Positions 2,011-14,567 of a stretch of DNA of 64,000 bases are shown piece after piece (position 1 is the first letter of the stretch; each line of letters starts with the position of its first letter). This stretch comes from Candidatus Woesearchaeota archaeon. Lineage in GTDB: Archaea; Nanobdellota; Nanobdellia; Woesearchaeales; ARS49. Under the pieces are notes generated by a model. The model was not told where the DNA came from and did no database searches. It was given only the letters and a program-made list of their open reading frames with translations. The stretch is from the NCBI GenBank assembly GCA_016203225.1, contig JACQNC010000009.1, positions 62,001 to 126,000 on the forward strand, given 5' to 3'. Made by a program: the position numbers and the translations under genes.

Positions 2011-2660
2011 GCACGACATACCATAGGGGACCTGGAGCGCAAGCGATCGCTCAAGATGCATCGAACGGCATGAAGCCGAGCCTATGCAAACTCATCGTCT
2101 CGCTCTTGGACTGTACCCTTGCGAAATCGATCGCGAGTTATGAAAATACCGAACGGCTGCCGTCAGGGCCGTACGTGCTGCTTCCGAAACACAGCTCCCA
2201 TCTCGACATCCTGCTGGAAGGAGCGATGTTGTACGGGAGCCAAGGCCGGCTAGGACATTACTTGATGAAACCCTCCTTGCCAAGGGCATTCCAATGGCTC
2301 GGAGGCATCTCCGTCTATCGCAGCAAGGATACGAACAGCCGACGCGCTCTGCTCGCGAACAACGAACAAGTGTTTGCCGAGGCGGGCCGGTTGCTTTCGA
2401 ACGGCGAGATCATAGTCATGCATCCTGAGGGCACACGCGTCTCAGGGGGCATGGGAGAGTTGCGCACCGGCGGGATCCGCATGCTAATCGAGATGCAGGA
2501 GACGATCGGGCCGGTCACGTTCGTTCCATTGGGCATAGAATATCGCGCATTGAGAGTCGCATTACGTGTGGGACGGCCGCGGACATACAGCCTGTTCTGG
2601 AACGACGATGCTGAGCGATTGAGGAAAGAGCTTGCTTTCCTGTCAGGGGTCGGATCCTAG
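2007..2660 (+). CDS. 1-acyl-sn-glycerol-3-phosphate acyltransferase-like (PlsC family)
   Basis: KHSSHLD (HX4D) and HPEGTR motifs; ATGA overlap with upstream gene. Confidence 0.85.
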   Translation: MSTTYHRGPGAQAIAQDASNGMKPSLCKLIVSLLDCTLAKSIASYENTERLPSGPYVLLPKHSSHLDILLEGAMLYGSQGRLGHYLMKPSLPRAFQWLGGISVYRSKDTNSRRALLANNEQVFAEAGRLLSNGEIIVMHPEGTRVSGGMGELRTGGIRMLIEMQETIGPVTFVPLGIEYRALRVALRVGRPRTYSLFWNDDAERLRKELAFLSGVGS

Positions 2661-3787
2661 GCTGCGTTCGAGCGTTTACCGATGCCGATCAATCTTAGCA
2701 AGCCCGGACGTTGCACGGCCGGCGGTATCTCGAATTTCTCGGCCTCGACTGAATTGGGGCAGAGCCAATATCCGGGGATCGCTTCGAGTTGGGCGACAGA
2801 ACTGTCCGCTTTGGTCCCCATCACGAAATCCATCAGGGGAAAGACTACGTTGAGGTTCAGGTACATTCCTATGTGGTGCAGGAAGTGATGGTTATCAAGG
2901 TACTTGAACGGCGGCAACCAACGCAGTACGCGCTCGCCGGTGCGCTTCAGCCACGAGAATGGCTTCTGGTACCAACGCAATGAAGCGCGGGATTCCCGCT
3001 CGCGTTGGAGCATCTCGGTCGTGACACTCTCCAGTAGCTCGTGTTCCGTGCCTTCCGCGATGGCGACGAGCGGTTTCCGGCTGGATGCGCGATTGATCGC
3101 GAGCTGTTCTTTGAGCCGCGCCACGACACCGTCGCTGAACGTGTAGTGCTGGTCTTTCGCGTCGATGTTCCGCTCGATGTTCGCTTGGACCTCTGCGCAG
3201 ATGTCGTCGAGCAACGGTTTTGAGAAGCGGAGTTTCTCATCAATCCTGCTGGAGTCGTCTTCGCTCATCAGACGTCGCGGCTGTCCCGGGACGTACGCGG
3301 CGCCGTATTGGATTCTGTCACCTAGCACGCGGTTGATCCCGAGGCGCTGCTTGCCGCTGACGTGCATGACGTGGTGGGCGCTTTCATAGAGTCCATAATA
3401 CAGCGCGGAGCCTGCGAGCGTCCCGAGCACGATCGCCGCATCCACGGGGCCGACACCGGACGTTCCTGCGTACGCTGCGTAGATCCGATCCAAGCCGACG
3501 CCGACCCCGATCGCGATGGCGTGGATCAGCGCGACGTCGTTTTTGGCGAAATGGAGAACGACATGTTCATTGGTCGCGTTCTGGTAATAATTCCATGGCG
3601 CGGCGTATCCTCGATGGTGGATGTCGGTATGGCCGCGTTTCGTGTTGTCGTTGACATAGGGCACGATTTCGCTCTTCTTGGGATGAAGGAGGTAGCGATG
3701 GATGAGCCATTCGACCGGCGAACCGATCGTGAGGCTTACGGCTGCTGCGCCCGTGAATAGCGTGATGAGTTCTGCGAGGTCTGTCAT
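2657..3787 (-). CDS. Fatty acid hydroxylase/sterol desaturase-like membrane di-iron protein
   Basis: Histidine boxes HRYLLH, HTDIHH, ESAHHVMH, DNHHFLHHIG with hydrophobic segments; ATG at 3787. Confidence 0.75.
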   Translation of the reverse strand: MTDLAELITLFTGAAAVSLTIGSPVEWLIHRYLLHPKKSEIVPYVNDNTKRGHTDIHHRGYAAPWNYYQNATNEHVVLHFAKNDVALIHAIAIGVGVGLDRIYAAYAGTSGVGPVDAAIVLGTLAGSALYYGLYESAHHVMHVSGKQRLGINRVLGDRIQYGAAYVPGQPRRLMSEDDSSRIDEKLRFSKPLLDDICAEVQANIERNIDAKDQHYTFSDGVVARLKEQLAINRASSRKPLVAIAEGTEHELLESVTTEMLQRERESRASLRWYQKPFSWLKRTGERVLRWLPPFKYLDNHHFLHHIGMYLNLNVVFPLMDFVMGTKADSSVAQLEAIPGYWLCPNSVEAEKFEIPPAVQRPGLLRLIGIGKRSNAA

Positions 3788-4230
3788 CTTATGAATCGGT
3801 CCAATTCGTGCAGCTTGAACATCTTCTTCTTTCCTGAATCGACATCCTGCGCGCGGATCTGGTTGCCGACGTGCAGGACTTTCCACGAGCCTTCGTCGGT
3901 CTTGATGATGTCGCCGACCTTGAACGGCAATTGCCTGAAAAGCACCGTGACGCGGTATAACAGCTTGCCGCTCATGCGATCCTGCGAATACAATCTCCTG
4001 CTCACCTCGTATTCGCCCGCGAAGCGCAGTTTTAGGCGTTTGCCGAGCGCCTGGAGATAATGTTGGTCAGTGAGATAGAGGTCATAGCCGTTCGTGACGA
4101 GCTTCTCCTTCGCGACCGTGGACTTGTTCTCGCGCTCGATCACATCATAGACCCAATCGTAGACCTCCTGCGAGACGTTGCGCAATTGCAGTATCCCCTC
4201 GAAGTATTCGGGGTGCCTGTCTTTCTTCAT
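3784..4230 (-). CDS. NMD3-like C-terminal region protein (60S export/ribosome biogenesis family)
   Basis: RHPEYFEGILQLRN... and SGKLLYRVTVLFRQLPFKVGDIIKTDEG resemble NMD3 C-terminal half; no zinc ribbons in this ORF. Confidence 0.65.
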   Translation of the reverse strand: MKKDRHPEYFEGILQLRNVSQEVYDWVYDVIERENKSTVAKEKLVTNGYDLYLTDQHYLQALGKRLKLRFAGEYEVSRRLYSQDRMSGKLLYRVTVLFRQLPFKVGDIIKTDEGSWKVLHVGNQIRAQDVDSGKKKMFKLHELDRFIR

Positions 4231-4814
4231 CGCGCGCCGGCCAGCCGGTCCAGGACGTCCTTCAGTTCTGATGTCGTCATCAGCATTATGCGCGGGCGGC
4301 CCCGGCTTGGCCGCGTCAGTTCGTCGATGGCATGCTTGAGATGGACGTGCGTGATGGGCTGGGCCTTGAGGTCGGTTATGAGTTCAAGCAGGTCGCGGCG
4401 CTTGGACTTGGTGTCCTTGAGCAACACGTGGTCGAGTGCCTTGATGAGCTTCTCGCGCAATGACGCATCGTCCTCGGCGCCCGTCGCCCGCGAGATCTCC
4501 CCCGGCAGGTTGGTCGTCGTCCGGGGCGTCTTCTTCGGGTTCTTCAATTCCTTGACGACCTTGATGAACGCCTCTTTCTGGTTGGCGGTGAGGCTGCCGA
4601 ACCTCATGTACTGCGACTTGATGCTCCTCAGAAATTGGGATTGCTGGTAGAACTCGAGCGGGATGTCGAAGAACTTCGCCATCGTCTTGTTCGAGATAGG
4701 GCCTGAGATCTCCGCCAGCTGGCAGCTCGCGCAGATAGGGAACTGCTTCGCAGAGTACATGGGGACCATGTTTTTGCGGCATTTCACGCAACGTTGCTGA
4801 TAACGGACTGGCAT
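4227..4814 (-). CDS. Zinc-ribbon protein of unknown function
   Basis: MPVRYQQRCVKCRKNMVPMYSAKQFPICASCQ: CxxC...CxxC at N-terminus; ATG at 4814, 26 nt from TTTATAAA. Confidence 0.7.
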   Translation of the reverse strand: MPVRYQQRCVKCRKNMVPMYSAKQFPICASCQLAEISGPISNKTMAKFFDIPLEFYQQSQFLRSIKSQYMRFGSLTANQKEAFIKVVKELKNPKKTPRTTTNLPGEISRATGAEDDASLREKLIKALDHVLLKDTKSKRRDLLELITDLKAQPITHVHLKHAIDELTRPSRGRPRIMLMTTSELKDVLDRLAGAR

Positions 4815-4836
4815 AAAGGTGATTTCCCGAAATACA

Positions 4837-4844
4837 TTTATAAA
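4837..4844. promoter_or_regulatory. Palindromic TATA box TTTATAAA shared by divergent genes
   Basis: TTTATAAA centred about 26 nt from the minus ATG (4814) and about 38 nt from the plus ATG (4879). Confidence 0.6.
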
Positions 4845-4878
4845 CCCATCGTGCGGTAATGTGCCTGAGGTGTTGGGT

Positions 4879-5718
4879 ATGGAAAAGACACAAGCTCCGA
4901 AGAAGTCCAAGAAAGGTCTGGTTATCGGCATCATCGTTCTCTTAGTGCTCGCAGGCGCGGGCTACGCGTTCTATGCTGTCACTGGTTCTTCTACAGTGAA
5001 GGCGCAAGTCCACGTCGAATCAGGCAGCGTCTCGGTCAATGGCGCTACTGCCGCAGGCACCGTGAAGCTCTCGGAAGGTGACGTGATCACGACCGGCAGC
5101 GATGGCAAAGCCACTGTCGTACTGTACGAGAGCACGCTGATCAGTCTTGAGCCCGACAGCCAAGTGACGCTTGACGAACTCACGAAGTCGCACCCGAAGG
5201 TGTCTCAGGAAGGCACCACGTGGACCATGTTCACCAAGCTCGCGGGCGCTGAGGCGTTCTCGGCCAAGGCAGGCAGCACAGTCGCTTCGGTGCGCGGCAC
5301 TGTATTCGAGCTTAGCGATGGTTTCATCATGACTGGCGAAGGCACAGTGACGTACAATATGGAGGGTCAGACATTCACCGTCAAGACCGGTCAGGTCGTC
5401 GAGGACGGCGTCGCGCGTGACGCGACACCCGAGGAGCTCGCCAGCATGACCGGCTTCATGAATCGTGCGGTCGGTGAGCTGAAGCACATGCGCCAGCTCG
5501 AGATCGACAAGCATCCCACCACTTACGCGATGGTGAAGTCGATGTACGGCGTCGACGACGCGTTCATCCAGAACAAGCTGGCAGAGGCCGACGCGGGGAT
5601 GTTCAACGTGGACGAGTTCGTGCTCAAGTCGCCGGTCCAGATGGACTCGGTCGATAAGATCGCGGACATCACGAAGACCATCCAGAAGGTCAATGAAGAC
5701 ATCGAAAGCATGCAGTAG
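4879..5718 (+). CDS. FecR-domain-like secreted/membrane-anchored protein
   Basis: N-terminal TM, then VHVESGSVSVNG...LSEGDVITTGSDGKATVVLYESTLISLEPDSQVTL...VASVRGTVFEL, typical of FecR. Confidence 0.85.
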   Translation: MEKTQAPKKSKKGLVIGIIVLLVLAGAGYAFYAVTGSSTVKAQVHVESGSVSVNGATAAGTVKLSEGDVITTGSDGKATVVLYESTLISLEPDSQVTLDELTKSHPKVSQEGTTWTMFTKLAGAEAFSAKAGSTVASVRGTVFELSDGFIMTGEGTVTYNMEGQTFTVKTGQVVEDGVARDATPEELASMTGFMNRAVGELKHMRQLEIDKHPTTYAMVKSMYGVDDAFIQNKLAEADAGMFNVDEFVLKSPVQMDSVDKIADITKTIQKVNEDIESMQ

Positions 5719-7581
5719 ATGGAAAAAGGCACCAAAGCCAGCGTTTTCGCTGGCGTCTTCCTTGTTTTTGCGTTGTTGATCCTCGCGGACGCGTTCGGTC
5801 ACATCCGCGGCGGGCTCTCCGATCGCCTCTATGGCGACCGGGCGCCGCTCGAGGACATCGTGATCGTCAAGATCGATGACGTGAGCATAAACAGGCTCGG
5901 CAGATGGCCCTGGGAGCGCAGCGTCCACGCACGCCTGCTCGAAAAGCTCAAGGATGCGCGGATAGTGGGCGTTGATGTCTCGTTCTTCGAGCCGAGCGCG
6001 AACGACATAGCTTTACGCACCGCCATTGAACGCATGCCGAATCTCGTGCTTGCCGCGGAGGTGCAGGAAGGCGTGCTTTACGCGCCGATCTTTGATGCGG
6101 CGTACGGCTACGTCAATCTCGTGACCGATACCGATGGGATCACGCGCAAGGTCAATCCTCGCCTCAGGGATGGCGTGGCTCCGTTCGCGTTCGAACTGTA
6201 CAAGCGCGGCTGGAACAAGGAAGCGATCCTTCCCGGAACGCAGCTCGCGATCAACTTCGTCAGCCGACCAGGGAGTTTCACCTCCTATCCTGCGCACGAC
6301 GTGCTCGCGAAGAATCTGAGTTTCAAGGACAAGTTCGTCCTGATCGGCGCTACGGCTCCTGATCTGCATGATGAGTACTTCGTCCCGACATCAGAAGGCA
6401 AGGCCATGCCCGGCGTCGAGATCCATGCCAACATCCTGCAGAACTTCATCCTGGATGAGTTTCTGACGCGCCAGGGCAAGACCGGCACGATCCTGCTTGT
6501 CGCACTTGTCGGGCTCTTGGGCATGTTCATCCTGTCTAGGATGCATGTCACGTTCGCCATCCCGACTGCGTTGGGCGCGGTAATATTGTACGGAATGATC
6601 GCGATTTTCGTGTTCAAACAGGCGCGGATCGTCCTTGACCTTTTCTACGCGCCTCTCGCGCTCGCGGTGTTCACCGGCACGGGCGTTGCGCTCAATTACT
6701 GGGAAGAGAAGAGGAGGTCCGCGTACCTCAAGGACGCGTTCGGCAAGTACGTCTCGAAGGAACTCCTGCAGGAATTGCTGACGGCAAAGCAGGAATTGAA
6801 GCTCGGTGGCGTGAAGCGCACCATCACCGTGTTCTTCTCGGACATCAGAGGGTTCACGGGCATCTCGGAATCGTTGTCTCCCGAACAGCTCACTGGCCTG
6901 CTGAATGAATACCTCACCGCGATGACCAGGATCATCCTCGCGCGCAGCGGCACGGTTGACAAGTTCATCGGCGACGCCATCATGGCGTTATGGAACGCTC
7001 CCTTGGAGCAGAGGCAGCACGCGTTGCTCGCATGCAGGGCTGCAGTCGAGCAGGTGAAGGCCTTGCGCGAACTGCAGAAACAGTGGGCCGCGCGGAAACT
7101 TCCGGTCATGACGATCGGGTGCGGCGTGCACACAGGTCCGGCGGTGATCGGCAACATGGGTTCCGAGGAACGGTTCGACTACACCGCGATCGGCGACACG
7201 GTCAACATCGCGTCACGGCTCGAGGGGCTCACGAAGGAGTACGGGACCAAGATAATCATCTCCGAGGACACGTACAAGCATGTCAAGGATGAGTTCGTAT
7301 GCAGGAAACTCGACGCCGTGCGCGTGAAAGGCCGCATGCACCCGATCATAATCTATGAATTGTGCGTCGAGCGCGATGACGATTTCCGTCTCAAGTTCGA
7401 GGCCGGGCTGCAGAAATACTTCGACCGCGATTTCGCTGAAGCAAAGAGAGAGTTCGGTGACGCGTTGAAACACCAGCCCACGAACGACTCGTGCAGGATC
7501 TTCATCGCGCGATCCGAGATGTACCTCAAGTATCCGCCCAGCGATGACTGGGATGGCGCGTTCGTTATGAATACGAAATAG
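5719..7581 (+). CDS. CHASE2-domain class III adenylate/guanylate cyclase
   Basis: N-terminal CHASE2-like domain (IVIVKIDDVSINRLGRWPWERSVHARLLEKL), TMs, catalytic domain FFSDIRGFTGISE...GTVDKFIGDAIMALW...YTAIGDTVNIASRLEG. Confidence 0.92.
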   Translation: MEKGTKASVFAGVFLVFALLILADAFGHIRGGLSDRLYGDRAPLEDIVIVKIDDVSINRLGRWPWERSVHARLLEKLKDARIVGVDVSFFEPSANDIALRTAIERMPNLVLAAEVQEGVLYAPIFDAAYGYVNLVTDTDGITRKVNPRLRDGVAPFAFELYKRGWNKEAILPGTQLAINFVSRPGSFTSYPAHDVLAKNLSFKDKFVLIGATAPDLHDEYFVPTSEGKAMPGVEIHANILQNFILDEFLTRQGKTGTILLVALVGLLGMFILSRMHVTFAIPTALGAVILYGMIAIFVFKQARIVLDLFYAPLALAVFTGTGVALNYWEEKRRSAYLKDAFGKYVSKELLQELLTAKQELKLGGVKRTITVFFSDIRGFTGISESLSPEQLTGLLNEYLTAMTRIILARSGTVDKFIGDAIMALWNAPLEQRQHALLACRAAVEQVKALRELQKQWAARKLPVMTIGCGVHTGPAVIGNMGSEERFDYTAIGDTVNIASRLEGLTKEYGTKIIISEDTYKHVKDEFVCRKLDAVRVKGRMHPIIIYELCVERDDDFRLKFEAGLQKYFDRDFAEAKREFGDALKHQPTNDSCRIFIARSEMYLKYPPSDDWDGAFVMNTK

Positions 7582-7590
7582 ACGTTCTAC

Positions 7591-7707
7591 GTTCCCAAGC
7601 GTGAACTTCCCAGGCAGGTTTGTAGTGGCTTTACTGCAATCGAATCGATTGCGATGAAGCAACGTCAATCGTGACTGGGCGGAAATGCAAGGACTGCAAC
7701 GGAAGTC
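7591..7707 (+). repeat. Copy A of a three-copy intergenic element / candidate ncRNA
   Basis: TCCCAGGCAGGTTTG (7608-7622) and CTGCAACGGA (7694-7703) identical to copy B; internal GCAATCG-AAT-CGATTGC hairpin nested in GCTTTA/TGAAGC. Confidence 0.55.
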
Positions 7708-7754
7708 TGGCGGCAACAGTAAAGCTTTTAAGAGCAGAGAAAGGACAAACAGGC

Positions 7755-8444
7755 ATGAACGGTCAACAGCCATCAACATCGACACAGATATCAACGCAAA
7801 CGCCTGCACGGCCGGTGCAAGCGCAGGTCCAACCGGCACAGCCAGGCAAGCCCGACATCAAGGCCAACTTCTGGCGGTGGCTTTGGTGGTTCATCTGGGA
7901 GGACAACAGCATCTGGAGCTGGATCGTGAACATCATCCTGGCGTTCGTCATAATCAAGTTCATAGTCTATCCTGGGCTAGGACTGTTGCTCGGCACCGGT
8001 TTCCCGATAGTCGCAGTCGTTTCAGGTTCTATGGAGCACGACGGCTCGTTCGACCAATGGTGGACGTCGCAGTGCGGCAGCGCATCGCAATCTGAATTGT
8101 ACGCGGAGTACGGCGTCGACAAGACGGAATTCGGGGCATTCCGGTTCAGGAACGGGTTCAACAAGGGGGATCTGATGATCCTGCGCAGCGCGAAGGAAGT
8201 CGGATTGGGGGATGTCGTCGTCTTCTCCGCTCCTGGTCTGCGTGACCCGATCATCCATCGCGCCGTGGCGATCTCTGATAGCAGCATAACCACCAAGGGC
8301 GACCACAATTGCGTCTCGGCACCGTTCGAGACCAACCTCTCCCAAGAGCGATTGCTAGGCAAGGCCTTGTTCAGGTTGCCATACTTGGGATGGATAAAGA
8401 TCGGGTTCGTTGAATTGGTCAACATCATCGCTGGAAGGAACTGA
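7755..8444 (+). CDS. Signal peptidase I (S26, archaeal/Sec11-like)
   Basis: VVSGSMEH (Ser), DPIIHRAVAI (His), TTKGDHN motif; N-terminal TM. Confidence 0.9.
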   Translation: MNGQQPSTSTQISTQTPARPVQAQVQPAQPGKPDIKANFWRWLWWFIWEDNSIWSWIVNIILAFVIIKFIVYPGLGLLLGTGFPIVAVVSGSMEHDGSFDQWWTSQCGSASQSELYAEYGVDKTEFGAFRFRNGFNKGDLMILRSAKEVGLGDVVVFSAPGLRDPIIHRAVAISDSSITTKGDHNCVSAPFETNLSQERLLGKALFRLPYLGWIKIGFVELVNIIAGRN

Positions 8445-10521: not shown

Positions 10522-12384
10522 TTGTGCATAATGGAGGATAATAATGCATTTATAGGACGGATGAAGCGGTTCATCTGTTGGGGGAATACTGTGGCATTAG
10601 ACGATCGCATCAAGGGCGCGCTGGCTTCTCAAGAGCTCCGACAGGCATTTTTCCAGGACGGCTGGACCGACTTGAAGCACACGCCTGAGCGTGAGGACCG
10701 CATCCAGCCCGCGAATTATGACCTCGCCATCCAGGACGAATGCTGGCGCGTTCCTAACGGATTCCGTCCTTCGCGCGGCGTATCCGTGCTTGAATCATTG
10801 CGGCGATTGCTCCCCCGCGAAAGGTCCCATCAGAAGATCGATCCATCCGACGGTATTGTTCTCGCTCCGGAATTCTCTTACCTCTTCCCCGCAGAAGGTT
10901 CCTGGAAGGTTCCGCGTAACTTCTTCATCCGAGCAAGCCCTAAGTCGACCGAGGGCAGGATGGGAAACTTCGACCGGTTGCTCGGTGACGGCGTCCCCCG
11001 ATACGATGAAGTGCCTGAGGGATTCCAAGGTAAGCTTTACGTCCTTGTCAAGCCACTGGTGTTCTTCAACAGGGTGTTCCCGGGGTTCTCGTTCAATCAA
11101 CTGCGCGCGTATTGCGGCAGCCAGTGCGTAGTCAGCGACGACGACCTCAGGAAACTCATCAACCAGCTCCAGCTCGTCAAAAGGAACGGGCACGCGATCC
11201 CCGCAAATGAACTCGAATTCGACAACGGGCTGCTTCTCACCGCGGACCTGGAAGGCAGGGAAAGCGACGGGCTTGTCGGATTCCGCTCACGCAGGAACCC
11301 TGAACCAATCGACCGTCGCGTGAAGCGAGCCATCGACTGGGAGCAGTATTTCGAGCCGTTGCTCGCGCCCAAGACAGGAGACGTCCAGCTCAAGCGCGGA
11401 GAGCTACTTCTGACGCAGTCCCGTGAATGGCTCAGCATGACCCCCACCCACGCAGGCGTGATGCCCGACTATCGCACCAACATCATGGAGAACCGTGCGC
11501 ACATCGCAGGGTATTTCGACGCGAACAAGTTCGAGGGCATCGCGACATTGGAGATACCTGTGCTGGACGAGATGGTGCTCCATCATGGCGACCCGTGCTG
11601 CGCGGTACAATATGAGCAGGTGCGCGTTAAGCCGGACAAAGAATATGGAGGCGCCCACATGGACCAGAAATTCGCGCTCTTGCCGAAACCGCTCAAGCTT
11701 CCCAATCCTGCGGAGATCGCGGGCAGGGTCGCCAATGAGAAAGAGCTCATCATGTATGTTGAGCGTGCGAAGCTGTTCGGCAAGGACTATTTCGAGGGAT
11801 TCTCACCGGTCGATGGCGTAGATTTCAGGGCACGCATGCTGGAACATGGTGAATTCGGGAAGCGCGGGAGCGCTGAATCAGGGGTCGGGCTTGAAGCGGA
11901 CAATTCCAAGAAGCAGCCTATCGCATATCTCGTGTTCGTGAACCCTGAAGAAAAACTCGTCTTTGGCTACTGGCGTGCCAGCGAAAAGGAGAAGTATGCC
12001 GAGACGCGTCTGCACGGCAGGTTCAGCATAGGCGTCGGCGGCCATGTGCGTCCAAGCGACAAGCAAGAGGATCCCGCAGATCCGATATTCGCATCGTTGA
12101 TGCGCGAAGTGCACAAAGAAGAGGTGAAGTGCGAAGGTCGGTACGGAGCGCCGAAGCTGATTGGTTATGTCAACGATGACACGTTCAGCCCTGTCGATTC
12201 CGTGCATGTGGGTTTGTTGTACGTGATCGAGACCACGGGCACGGTCGTGCCGAAGGATGAGGAGTTGAGAGAGGGGCGCATGATGCCGTTCTCGAACATC
12301 CACGCGCTCATGAAAGATCCACAGTGCAAGGTCGAATGCTGGACGCAACACGCATTCAAAGAGATCGAGAAGCGGTATTCATGA
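10522..12384 (+). CDS. 2'-deoxycytidine 5'-triphosphate deaminase (PF06559-like) fused to C-terminal Nudix hydrolase domain
   Basis: IQPANYDLAIQDECWRVPNGFRPSRG...PKSTEGRMGNFDRL..GFQGKLYVLVKPLVFFNRVFPGFSFNQLR; C-terminal GGHVRPSDKQEDPADPIFASLMREVHKEEV (Nudix-like). Exact start codon uncertain. Confidence 0.82.
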   Translation: MCIMEDNNAFIGRMKRFICWGNTVALDDRIKGALASQELRQAFFQDGWTDLKHTPEREDRIQPANYDLAIQDECWRVPNGFRPSRGVSVLESLRRLLPRERSHQKIDPSDGIVLAPEFSYLFPAEGSWKVPRNFFIRASPKSTEGRMGNFDRLLGDGVPRYDEVPEGFQGKLYVLVKPLVFFNRVFPGFSFNQLRAYCGSQCVVSDDDLRKLINQLQLVKRNGHAIPANELEFDNGLLLTADLEGRESDGLVGFRSRRNPEPIDRRVKRAIDWEQYFEPLLAPKTGDVQLKRGELLLTQSREWLSMTPTHAGVMPDYRTNIMENRAHIAGYFDANKFEGIATLEIPVLDEMVLHHGDPCCAVQYEQVRVKPDKEYGGAHMDQKFALLPKPLKLPNPAEIAGRVANEKELIMYVERAKLFGKDYFEGFSPVDGVDFRARMLEHGEFGKRGSAESGVGLEADNSKKQPIAYLVFVNPEEKLVFGYWRASEKEKYAETRLHGRFSIGVGGHVRPSDKQEDPADPIFASLMREVHKEEVKCEGRYGAPKLIGYVNDDTFSPVDSVHVGLLYVIETTGTVVPKDEELREGRMMPFSNIHALMKDPQCKVECWTQHAFKEIEKRYS

Positions 12385-13955
12385 GCTTCACACCTCCTCT
12401 CGTTACGCTCGTCGCCAAGTTCGACCAGTCCGCGTTCGACCTATCAGTAGGCGCGGCGCGCACCTGTTATGCGTCTAAAGCGGTCGCTCCGGAGCAGGTA
12501 GCGAAACGTCCTGATCTTGCCGACAAGATCTTCGAAGCCGTGCTCGAGGCAGGCCATCATACCACCATCCAGCACCCGCATTACACGTTCCTGATGCAGG
12601 GCGTGAGCCGGCAGTTCCTATGGTCGTTCCTGCACAGCCACCCATTCTACAATTCAGAACAACAGAGCCAACGCTACGTTGAGATGAAACCGGACCGGCT
12701 CGTCATCCCTCCGCTGGAAGGCAAGTCGCGCACCATCTTCATGGCGATGGCCACAGAGATGATGCAGGCCTACTTCGAGTTGAATGACCTGATGCGCCCG
12801 TTCATCGAAAAGGAATGGTTCAAGCTCTACTCTGGAAGGAAGGCCGACTTCTTGAACAAGAACGAGCGAGGCAAGCGTTGGGACGCCGCGATCCACAAAC
12901 GCACGCTCGAGGCGGCGCGTTATGTGATACCTGTAGCGATGCAGGCCGACCTATACCACACCATCTCCGGGCTCACGCTGATGCGATACTGGCGCATGTG
13001 CGAACAGTTCGATGCACCGGGCGAGACAAAGGATATCGTGGGCCGCATGATAGGGTTGGTCCGCGAGGACGACCCGCGGTACCTCTCGCGTCTCGAAGAC
13101 CCGGTACCTCTCCAGGAGACCCCGGAATACGTGATGTTCACGTCCTTCTTCGGCACCGGGCTCAATCCGTACGCGTCCGAGTTCATAAGGGAGTTCGACG
13201 CGCGGCTGGACGGATTGCAGGCGCTGCTCATCGGGCATGACCCGAACGCGGAGGCCGCGCTCGCGAACGCCGTGCGCGGTATTTTCGGGCTGCCGAAATC
13301 CCGGATGTCAGACGATGACGCCATCGATGTCGTGTTGGATCCGAGAAAGAACTCATATCTAGGCAGCACGCTGAACGTGAACACTCTCTCGAAACTGTCG
13401 CGTGCGCTGCATGTCGTTAATTACACGTTCGAGCACCGGTTGAGCCACACTGCAGACAGTCAAAGCCAAAGGCACCGCATGATCCCGGGCACGCGACCGA
13501 TCCTGCAGGCGCATTTCGACCCGAGCGAGCCGGACTGCATCTGGCCCATCTCATATCGGCAGGTCCCTGAGGCGATGGACAAAGTCACGAAGCTCACGGC
13601 AAAGGTCTGGAAGACCATCGGAGACCTCCTGAGCGAGGGAGTTCCGTGGGACTGCGCACAGTATCTCCTTCCGAACGCGACAGCAGTGCGTTACATAGAA
13701 TCAGGAAACCTCCTGAACTATCACCATAAATGGCACACCAGGTTATGCTATCTCGCGCAGGAGGAGATCTGGCGTCAATGCCTGGAAGAGGTGCGCCAGG
13801 TCTCGGAGGTTCACCCGCGCATCGGCAAGCATATCGGGCCGCCGTGCGCTATGCGCAACGTCGCCGGCATGAAGCCCATCTGTCCAGAGAAGGACCGTTA
13901 CTGCGGCGTTCCGGTGTGGCTCAGGACCCTTGACCAGTACGAGCGCGTCATCTGA
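12381..13955 (+). CDS. thyX: FAD-dependent thymidylate synthase, long tandem-domain ThyX
   Basis: AGHHTTIQHPHYTF..RQFLWSFLHSHPFYNSEQQSQRYVEM and second-half HRLSHTADSQSQRHRMIPGTRPI; ATGA overlap with upstream gene. Confidence 0.9.
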   Translation: MSFTPPLVTLVAKFDQSAFDLSVGAARTCYASKAVAPEQVAKRPDLADKIFEAVLEAGHHTTIQHPHYTFLMQGVSRQFLWSFLHSHPFYNSEQQSQRYVEMKPDRLVIPPLEGKSRTIFMAMATEMMQAYFELNDLMRPFIEKEWFKLYSGRKADFLNKNERGKRWDAAIHKRTLEAARYVIPVAMQADLYHTISGLTLMRYWRMCEQFDAPGETKDIVGRMIGLVREDDPRYLSRLEDPVPLQETPEYVMFTSFFGTGLNPYASEFIREFDARLDGLQALLIGHDPNAEAALANAVRGIFGLPKSRMSDDDAIDVVLDPRKNSYLGSTLNVNTLSKLSRALHVVNYTFEHRLSHTADSQSQRHRMIPGTRPILQAHFDPSEPDCIWPISYRQVPEAMDKVTKLTAKVWKTIGDLLSEGVPWDCAQYLLPNATAVRYIESGNLLNYHHKWHTRLCYLAQEEIWRQCLEEVRQVSEVHPRIGKHIGPPCAMRNVAGMKPICPEKDRYCGVPVWLRTLDQYERVI

Positions 13956-13988
13956 AGTTTTTTATAGCACCGCATCTTTCCGATTTCC

Positions 13989-14567
13989 GTGAAAGGCCTC
14001 TTCATCGTTCTCGAGGGCATAGACGGTTCTGGCAAGGGCACGCAGACGAAGTTGCTCTCGGAGTATCTCAAGAAGAGAGGCAGGAGGGTGCTGCTCACCT
14101 CCGAACCGAGCCATTCGGTAGTGGGCGCTTTCGCGAGAGAGCAGTTGCAGCATCGCAAGATGAGCCAGAAATGGATGCAGTTGCTGTTCGCGGCTGACCG
14201 GCAACATCACGTCGAGAATGATATCCTGCCCGCGTTGAAGGCTGGCAAGACCGTGATTTGCGACCGTTACAGTTTGTCTTCGCTCGCGTACGGCAGCGTA
14301 TCATTACCGCTGTCGTGGCTGAAGAAGCTCAACCACACGTTCCCGCGACCTGACTTGACGATCATCCTGGACGTCCCTGCTGAAGTCGGATTGAAACGTG
14401 TCCGTGGCCAGAGGCGCAGCCTGGAACTGTATGAGCGGAAAAACCTCTTGGCAAAGGTGCGCAGGAACTATCTCGCGCTCGCGAAAGGCGACATAAAGGT
14501 CGTGGACGCCTCAGGATCGAAGAAGGAGACGTTCGCCGCGATCAAAATGATCGTGGACAAACTCTGA
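13989..14567 (+). CDS. tmk: Thymidylate kinase (GTG start)
   Basis: FIVLEGIDGSGKGTQTKLL P-loop, TSEPSHSVVG, CDRYSLSSLAYG. Confidence 0.93.
   Translation: MKGLFIVLEGIDGSGKGTQTKLLSEYLKKRGRRVLLTSEPSHSVVGAFAREQLQHRKMSQKWMQLLFAADRQHHVENDILPALKAGKTVICDRYSLSSLAYGSVSLPLSWLKKLNHTFPRPDLTIILDVPAEVGLKRVRGQRRSLELYERKNLLAKVRRNYLALAKGDIKVVDASGSKKETFAAIKMIVDKL

Follow-up and report, generated by a model that had tools for sequence, protein, structure and literature searches.

A FecR-like protein and a CHASE2 class III cyclase form a recurrent, putative signalling pair in DPANN archaea

The 64,000-nucleotide stretch of archaeal DNA analysed here (hereafter the window) encodes a FecR-domain protein and, directly after it, a CHASE2–class III cyclase (Table 1). 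We consider it probable that the FecR and CHASE2 domains of the two proteins face the outside of the cell and control a class IIIb adenylyl cyclase that works as a dimer, and that the two genes are a unit that came once from bacteria and was later exchanged. What was observed is that the domains and all active-site residues are present, that the pairing is universal, that the two genes share a phylogenetic history and that they lie in an archaeal genome; to these observations we add a predicted topology, a predicted contact between FecR and CHASE2, and a predicted product. The pair belongs to a recurrent, catalytically complete class III family of DPANN archaea, always accompanied by a predicted extracellular FecR partner and apparently exchanged together with it. 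With this family, envelope-to-cytoplasm signalling becomes testable in presumed archaeal episymbionts and, at the same time, a missing receptor comes to light. The domain content itself, in which a FecR protein partners a class IIIb cyclase that has a CHASE2 domain, is already known; as far as the papers found in the open literature go, what is new is that the unit recurs in DPANN archaea, with its two genes paired and moving jointly.

Table 1. Features of the FecR–cyclase locus, in positions of the window
Feature	Position	Strand	Basis
FecR-domain membrane-anchored protein, 279 aa, putative extracytoplasmic sensor partner	4879..5718	+	PF04773; model match to FecR-type anti-sigma regulators
N-terminal TM helix of FecR protein, residues 11-34	4909..4980	+	AlphaFold helix, hydrophobic stretch; low pLDDT there
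FecR beta domain, residues 42-181	5002..5421	+	all-beta, pLDDT mostly ~90; Foldseek to 4m0h E 1.3e-6
C-terminal helical domain of FecR protein, residues 184-279	5428..5715	+	AlphaFold helices
TAG/ATG junction, no spacer, same frame	5716..5721	+	sequence; stop 5716-5718, start 5719
CHASE2–class III (IIIb) nucleotidyl cyclase, 620 aa	5719..7581	+	PF05226 + PF00211; nearest solved 3r5g, 1wc1, 2w01
CHASE2 extracytoplasmic sensor domain, residues 18-266	5770..6516	+	Pfam span; AlphaFold model
Three TM helices into transducer helix, residues 254-341	6478..6741	+	AlphaFold helices 254-274, 277-302, 310-341
Catalytic domain, residues 367-544 (D375, K415, D419, T489, N496, R500)	6817..7350	+	Pfam; residue conservation
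C-terminal helical tail, residues 554-604, just before conserved DWDG motif	7378..7530	+	model; alignment

The first protein of the pair matches the Pfam FecR profile (PF04773) with an E value of 1.1e-7 and 32.6 bits against a cut-off of 24. Its AlphaFold model (pLDDT 84.3, pTM 0.79) starts with a single helix, which is followed by an all-beta domain and then by a helical C-terminal part that is kept in most archaeal relatives. By Foldseek, the model matches the PDB entries 4m0h and 4m0n as well as PupR (6ovk). The modelled beta domain matches the putative anti-sigma factor BDI_1681 and the PupR domain for cell-surface signalling, which bears out the FecR assignment by fold, and a profile score above the cut-off together with a FecR-type beta fold places the protein among the FecR-domain proteins. 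It resembles the FecR/PupR anti-sigma regulators (6ovk, 4m0h) in having a single TM helix and a predicted outer beta domain of the FecR fold. Unlike them, it has no anti-sigma domain of the FecR/PupR type, with about ten residues preceding the helix and no anti-sigma Pfam family among its matches, and its paired output is a cyclase.

In the second protein, the CHASE2 (PF05226) and Guanylate_cyc (PF00211) profiles were found with E values of 8e-47 and 4e-25, respectively. The AlphaFold model (mean pLDDT 84.5; pTM 0.54, a value at which the relative placement of the domains is unreliable) runs from one TM helix through CHASE2 to three long hydrophobic TM helices, the last of which extends toward a CyaC-like catalytic domain, followed by a helical tail. 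This order, with CHASE2 between the first TM helix and three further ones and an output domain behind them, is that of a CHASE2 receptor. The nearest solved relatives in the fold search belong to class IIIb, namely CyaB of P. aeruginosa (3r5g), CyaC (1wc1) and Cya2 (2w01), which have the same catalytic domain at 38-40% identity (40% for CyaB and 38-39% for CyaC) and sensor parts unlike those of the window cyclase. The adenine-pocket Lys is as in CyaB, whereas Cya2, deposited as a guanylyl cyclase, has a Glu at this position.

The initial annotation considered the catalytic set complete, and all catalytic residues are indeed present and invariant among the archaeal rows of our alignment: the metal-binding D375 and D419 and the adenine-pocket K415 in 32 of 32, and the adenine-pocket T489 and the transition-state residues N496 and R500 in all of the 31 rows that reach these positions. 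One small correction concerns the Asp of the IGD motif, which the annotation counted in the active site. In class IIIb enzymes of the CyaC type, the second residue that specifies adenine is the Thr of FDYTAIGD, here T489, and not this Asp. Such a K/T pair is the ATP-specific pocket of the class IIIb adenylyl cyclase family, and the product of the window cyclase would be cAMP, made from ATP. The six catalytic positions are also retained in nearly all bacterial relatives. Half of the archaeal cyclases, all of them with cyclase domains, carry YIGD in place of FIGD.

As first annotated, the stop codon of the FecR gene and the ATG of the cyclase gene directly adjoin (CAG TAG ATG; 5718/5719), and from this junction the two genes are likely to be translationally coupled. 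Neighbouring genes were searched with a FecR profile built from archaeal proteins, and with Pfam. A FecR-like gene was found directly upstream of the cyclase in all 31 members of the archaeal clade, at 29 loci by the FecR profile and also in G135 and G015 (Pfam match C37:2416-2679). The gap between the two genes ranges from -29 to +32 nt at these 29 loci, and the Pfam FecR profile picks up 17 of the 18 archaeal FecR proteins that were aligned. The other neighbours change and are not conserved beyond close kin; the downstream gene (7671-8444) and one upstream gene are common to the window and a genome of the same genus (G004) only. In the phylum sample, 40 genomes are FecR-positive and include 24 of the 26 CHASE2 genomes; the FecR genes of the 16 genomes without a CHASE2 match count against reading FecR and CHASE2 as a unit. 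Pairs with the same gene order and domains, and with FecR confirmed by Pfam, also occur in Patescibacteria (CPR; for example, L209, L211 and L216), in clades that are separate from the archaeal one in the tree. At L126 and L149 (in G006 and G005) and L129 (in G011), two FecR genes stand in tandem before the cyclase, and in G006 the FecR protein nearest the cyclase has a lipoprotein-like start (LLLLMLVACAP).

We propose that both genes form one envelope-to-cytoplasm signalling unit. The FecR protein would be anchored by its single N-terminal helix, with the beta domain and the helical C-terminus outside, beside the CHASE2 domain of the cyclase; this membrane topology of the two proteins is a predicted one, and so is the physical contact between FecR and CHASE2. 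A change outside the cell, for which candidates are a ligand at the surface, stress on the envelope and contact with a host cell, would alter the FecR–CHASE2 state. This could be relayed through the three TM helices and then the transducer helix (KYVS), and would set how actively the class IIIb catalytic domains, as a dimer, convert ATP into cAMP. Following a single entry from bacteria into DPANN archaea, the unit would have been swapped between DPANN families as a two-gene cassette.

Two bacterial systems offer partial precedents. The CyaD1, CyaD2 and CyaK proteins of Sinorhizobium meliloti likewise combine a membrane CHASE2 domain with a class III cyclase and make cAMP on an external protein signal, which arrives via the outer-membrane protein NsrA; their cAMP is read by the CRP-family regulator Clr (PMC13001267), a counterpart of which was not found in the window's genome, and FecR is unmentioned in that paper. 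In the BiofilmReg operon of Burkholderia, an extracytoplasmic FecR-domain protein is likewise encoded directly before a CHASE2 receptor, but the output there is a histidine kinase with a response regulator rather than a cyclase, and the FecR protein has a LysM domain for peptidoglycan (PMC5192318) that is absent from the window's FecR protein.

Of the cAMP signalling module that the initial annotation proposed, the synthesis end is plausible. At the receiving end, the suggested search for CRP and other cNMP-binding proteins matched none in the window's genome (96.5% complete), neither with PF00027 nor with A3, a profile made from the family's own small cNMP-binding proteins, so that this genome, as judged from profile searches in draft genomes, either lacks the downstream half of a cAMP pathway or has one that goes unrecognised. 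PF00027 was matched in nine of the 371 phylum genomes, and a cNMP-binding domain was not detected in 24 of the 26 phylum-sample genomes that have CHASE2, the window's included. Across genomes that are related and therefore not independent, the association of cNMP-binding proteins was not significant with CHASE2 (p 0.13) and weak with any class III cyclase (p 0.012). The window's genome also encodes five calcineurin-like phosphoesterases, a family too general for a substrate to be assigned.

A conventional receptor is nevertheless likely in some genomes, because four relatives in the family that have the pair (G010, G017, G020 and G021) encode a stand-alone cNMP-binding protein, about 160 aa long, whose phosphate-binding cassette (FGEL..RSA) is intact, and because a cNMP-binding gene (L218:2641-3002; PF00027, E 2e-21) directly follows the CHASE2 cyclase in a Patescibacterium (G412). 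The latter neighbourhood is also direct support for a cyclic-nucleotide product. In the lineage of the window, the receptor either has diverged beyond recognition, or is of a new kind, or is absent as the signal acts elsewhere. As a tentative generalization, which we hold to be possible but on balance doubtful, this class of DPANN archaea may have a cAMP receptor outside the known cNMP-binding families or use cAMP as a signal toward the host, with the pair serving as an exchangeable sensor cassette. That the product of the cyclase acts outside the cell, or on the host cell of a presumed episymbiont, instead of on an internal receptor seems to us improbable. The 24 CHASE2 genomes with no detectable cNMP-binding domain would fit such an action, as would the host control through cAMP that has been proposed for a nanohaloarchaeon (PMC10266531), but no exporter or host has been identified, the four relatives just described have both the cyclase and the small protein with its intact cassette, and an unrecognised internal receptor accounts for the absence equally well. 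In a further genome (G018, 76% complete), with no CHASE2 detected, a small cNMP-binding gene (L263) contains one TAA within the match, which may be the gene's own stop or a sign of decay.

The distribution of the domains was traced with Pfam profile searches. Archaeal class III cyclases have been described as very few, and of the archaeal 'class IV' candidates the majority are apparently not cyclases (PMC8646023). The same rarity was assumed in the initial annotation, but does not apply to this phylum, in which the PF00211 cyclase domain was found in 68 of 371 genomes (63 above the curated cut-off). Nor is the pair an oddity of one genome, as it might at first have been taken to be, since CHASE2 is present in 15 of the 26 genomes of the window's family and in 26 of the 371 of the phylum, with one copy per genome in the archaeal searches. 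CHASE2 was absent from the four other archaea among the control genomes, which lie outside the phylum, and in the open-access papers found it is mentioned in archaea only with histidine kinases, in ammonia oxidisers (PMC11442133). Genomes of another family (f9) commonly have class III cyclases as stand-alone ORFs, about 210-250 aa long (for example, G069:C1:52777-53945, G082, G063, G110 and G123), with two in tandem in G069.

An unrooted cyclase tree that also included 20 bacteria from many phyla and 23 Patescibacteria places the archaeal cyclases together on one side of a branch, with a support of 98/99 (98/95 without the extra Patescibacteria). The module is of bacterial type, as initially suggested, with the archaeal proteins as one clade beside copies from many bacterial phyla. 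One old entry of the family from bacteria into DPANN archaea would be the simplest reading, because many bacterial phyla carry the family and the archaeal copies were found confined to this phylum; the direction rests on this taxonomic breadth, the trees being unrooted. The cross-domain transfer that the initial annotation inferred is therefore favoured as an ancient move and disfavoured as a recent one into this lineage. An exception is the CHASE2 cyclase of G169 (L148), which falls outside the archaeal clade, among bacterial sequences; it has a Ser instead of an Asp at position 493 and is either a separate acquisition or from a misbinned contig. Two other placements were discarded. A Clostridium sequence within the archaeal group, seen in a tree with five bacterial outgroups, was taken as a long-branch effect and was gone with wider sampling, and Parcubacteria and 'bacterium FK3.bin42' lost their sister-group position as a possible donor after denser sampling of Patescibacteria, so that no donor is claimed.

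Within the phylum, the history of the pair departs from that of its hosts. RpoB unites the window's family (f1) with a support of 99/98, whereas both the cyclase (log-likelihood loss 404, p-AU 2e-45) and FecR (loss 124, p-AU 3e-80) reject it as one clade. The same displaced groups appear in both trees, one made up of the window, G004, G011 and G187, the last from another family, and the other of G009, G010, G017, G020, G021 and, from another family, G291. With RpoB held constant, the distances of FecR and of the cyclase remain correlated (partial r 0.54, a value that none of 5000 permutations reached). Because the two genes both reject the family, show the same displaced groups and co-vary after the RpoB correction, the simplest account would be that DPANN families have passed the two genes between them as a unit.

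Vertical inheritance within the family since its ancestor, with no later transfer, is in our view unlikely. The presence of CHASE2 in 15 of the 26 family genomes agrees with it, and so do the same-genus genome G004, whose copy is the closest and is followed by the same gene, and a weak vertical signal in the distances of the cyclase and RpoB (r 0.33), but it is opposed by the splitting of the RpoB-supported family in both trees and by the grouping of the window's copy with G187, of another family of the class, at 100/100. Broad vertical presence, which the initial annotation had set against a transfer, was thus found only in part: the presence is broad (15/26 and 26/371), and the inheritance is not simply vertical, the unit having apparently moved between DPANN families. 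An unlikely alternative to transfer is ancient duplication with differential loss (hidden paralogy), against which it speaks that only one CHASE2 copy was found in each genome. A recent transfer from bacteria into this particular lineage is very improbable; the archaeal clade does adjoin bacterial copies, and bacteria of many phyla have CHASE2 cyclases, some with FecR, but the closest relatives of the window cyclase are archaeal (60% and about 54% identity, against about 38% or less for full-length bacterial proteins) and the codon usage is native.

The genome that carries the pair is that of a DPANN archaeon of the Woesearchaeota type (1,000,058 bases in 15 contigs, 96.5% complete). Contamination, raised initially as a caveat, is excluded and the pair is genuinely archaeal, because its flanks are archaeal (an NMD3-family protein, TFS of the TFS/TFIIS type, NucS and STT3), both genes are typical of the window in GC (0.58), third-position GC (0.77-0.79) and codon usage, and the pair recurs in relatives, two of which have it, in the same cyclase clade, on contigs of 737 kb and 568 kb. 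A bacterial contig misbinned with the archaeal genome, for which the bacterial occurrence of CHASE2 cyclases elsewhere and the 15-contig assembly might speak, has a negligible probability in the face of these observations and of CHASE2 in 15 of the 26 family genomes.

Other genes of the window also deserve mention. On the minus strand (3784-4230 and 4227-4934), a 235-aa ORF with CxxC motifs is directly followed by another ORF that encodes the C-terminal part of NMD3 (PF04981 positions 142-241), which indicates a split or frameshifted NMD3 gene. Also on the minus strand (2657-3886), a 409-aa protein without a Pfam match has His-rich repeats (HHRG, HHVMH and HHFLHH), motifs that recall membrane fatty-acid hydroxylases. 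On the plus strand (10522-14567), a dCTP deaminase-type protein, ThyX and thymidylate kinase are encoded consecutively, as a dTMP supply cluster; ThyX is matched in two stretches, and the dCTP deaminase-type protein has the N- and C-terminal DCD domains plus some 240 more residues, Nudix-like by eye.
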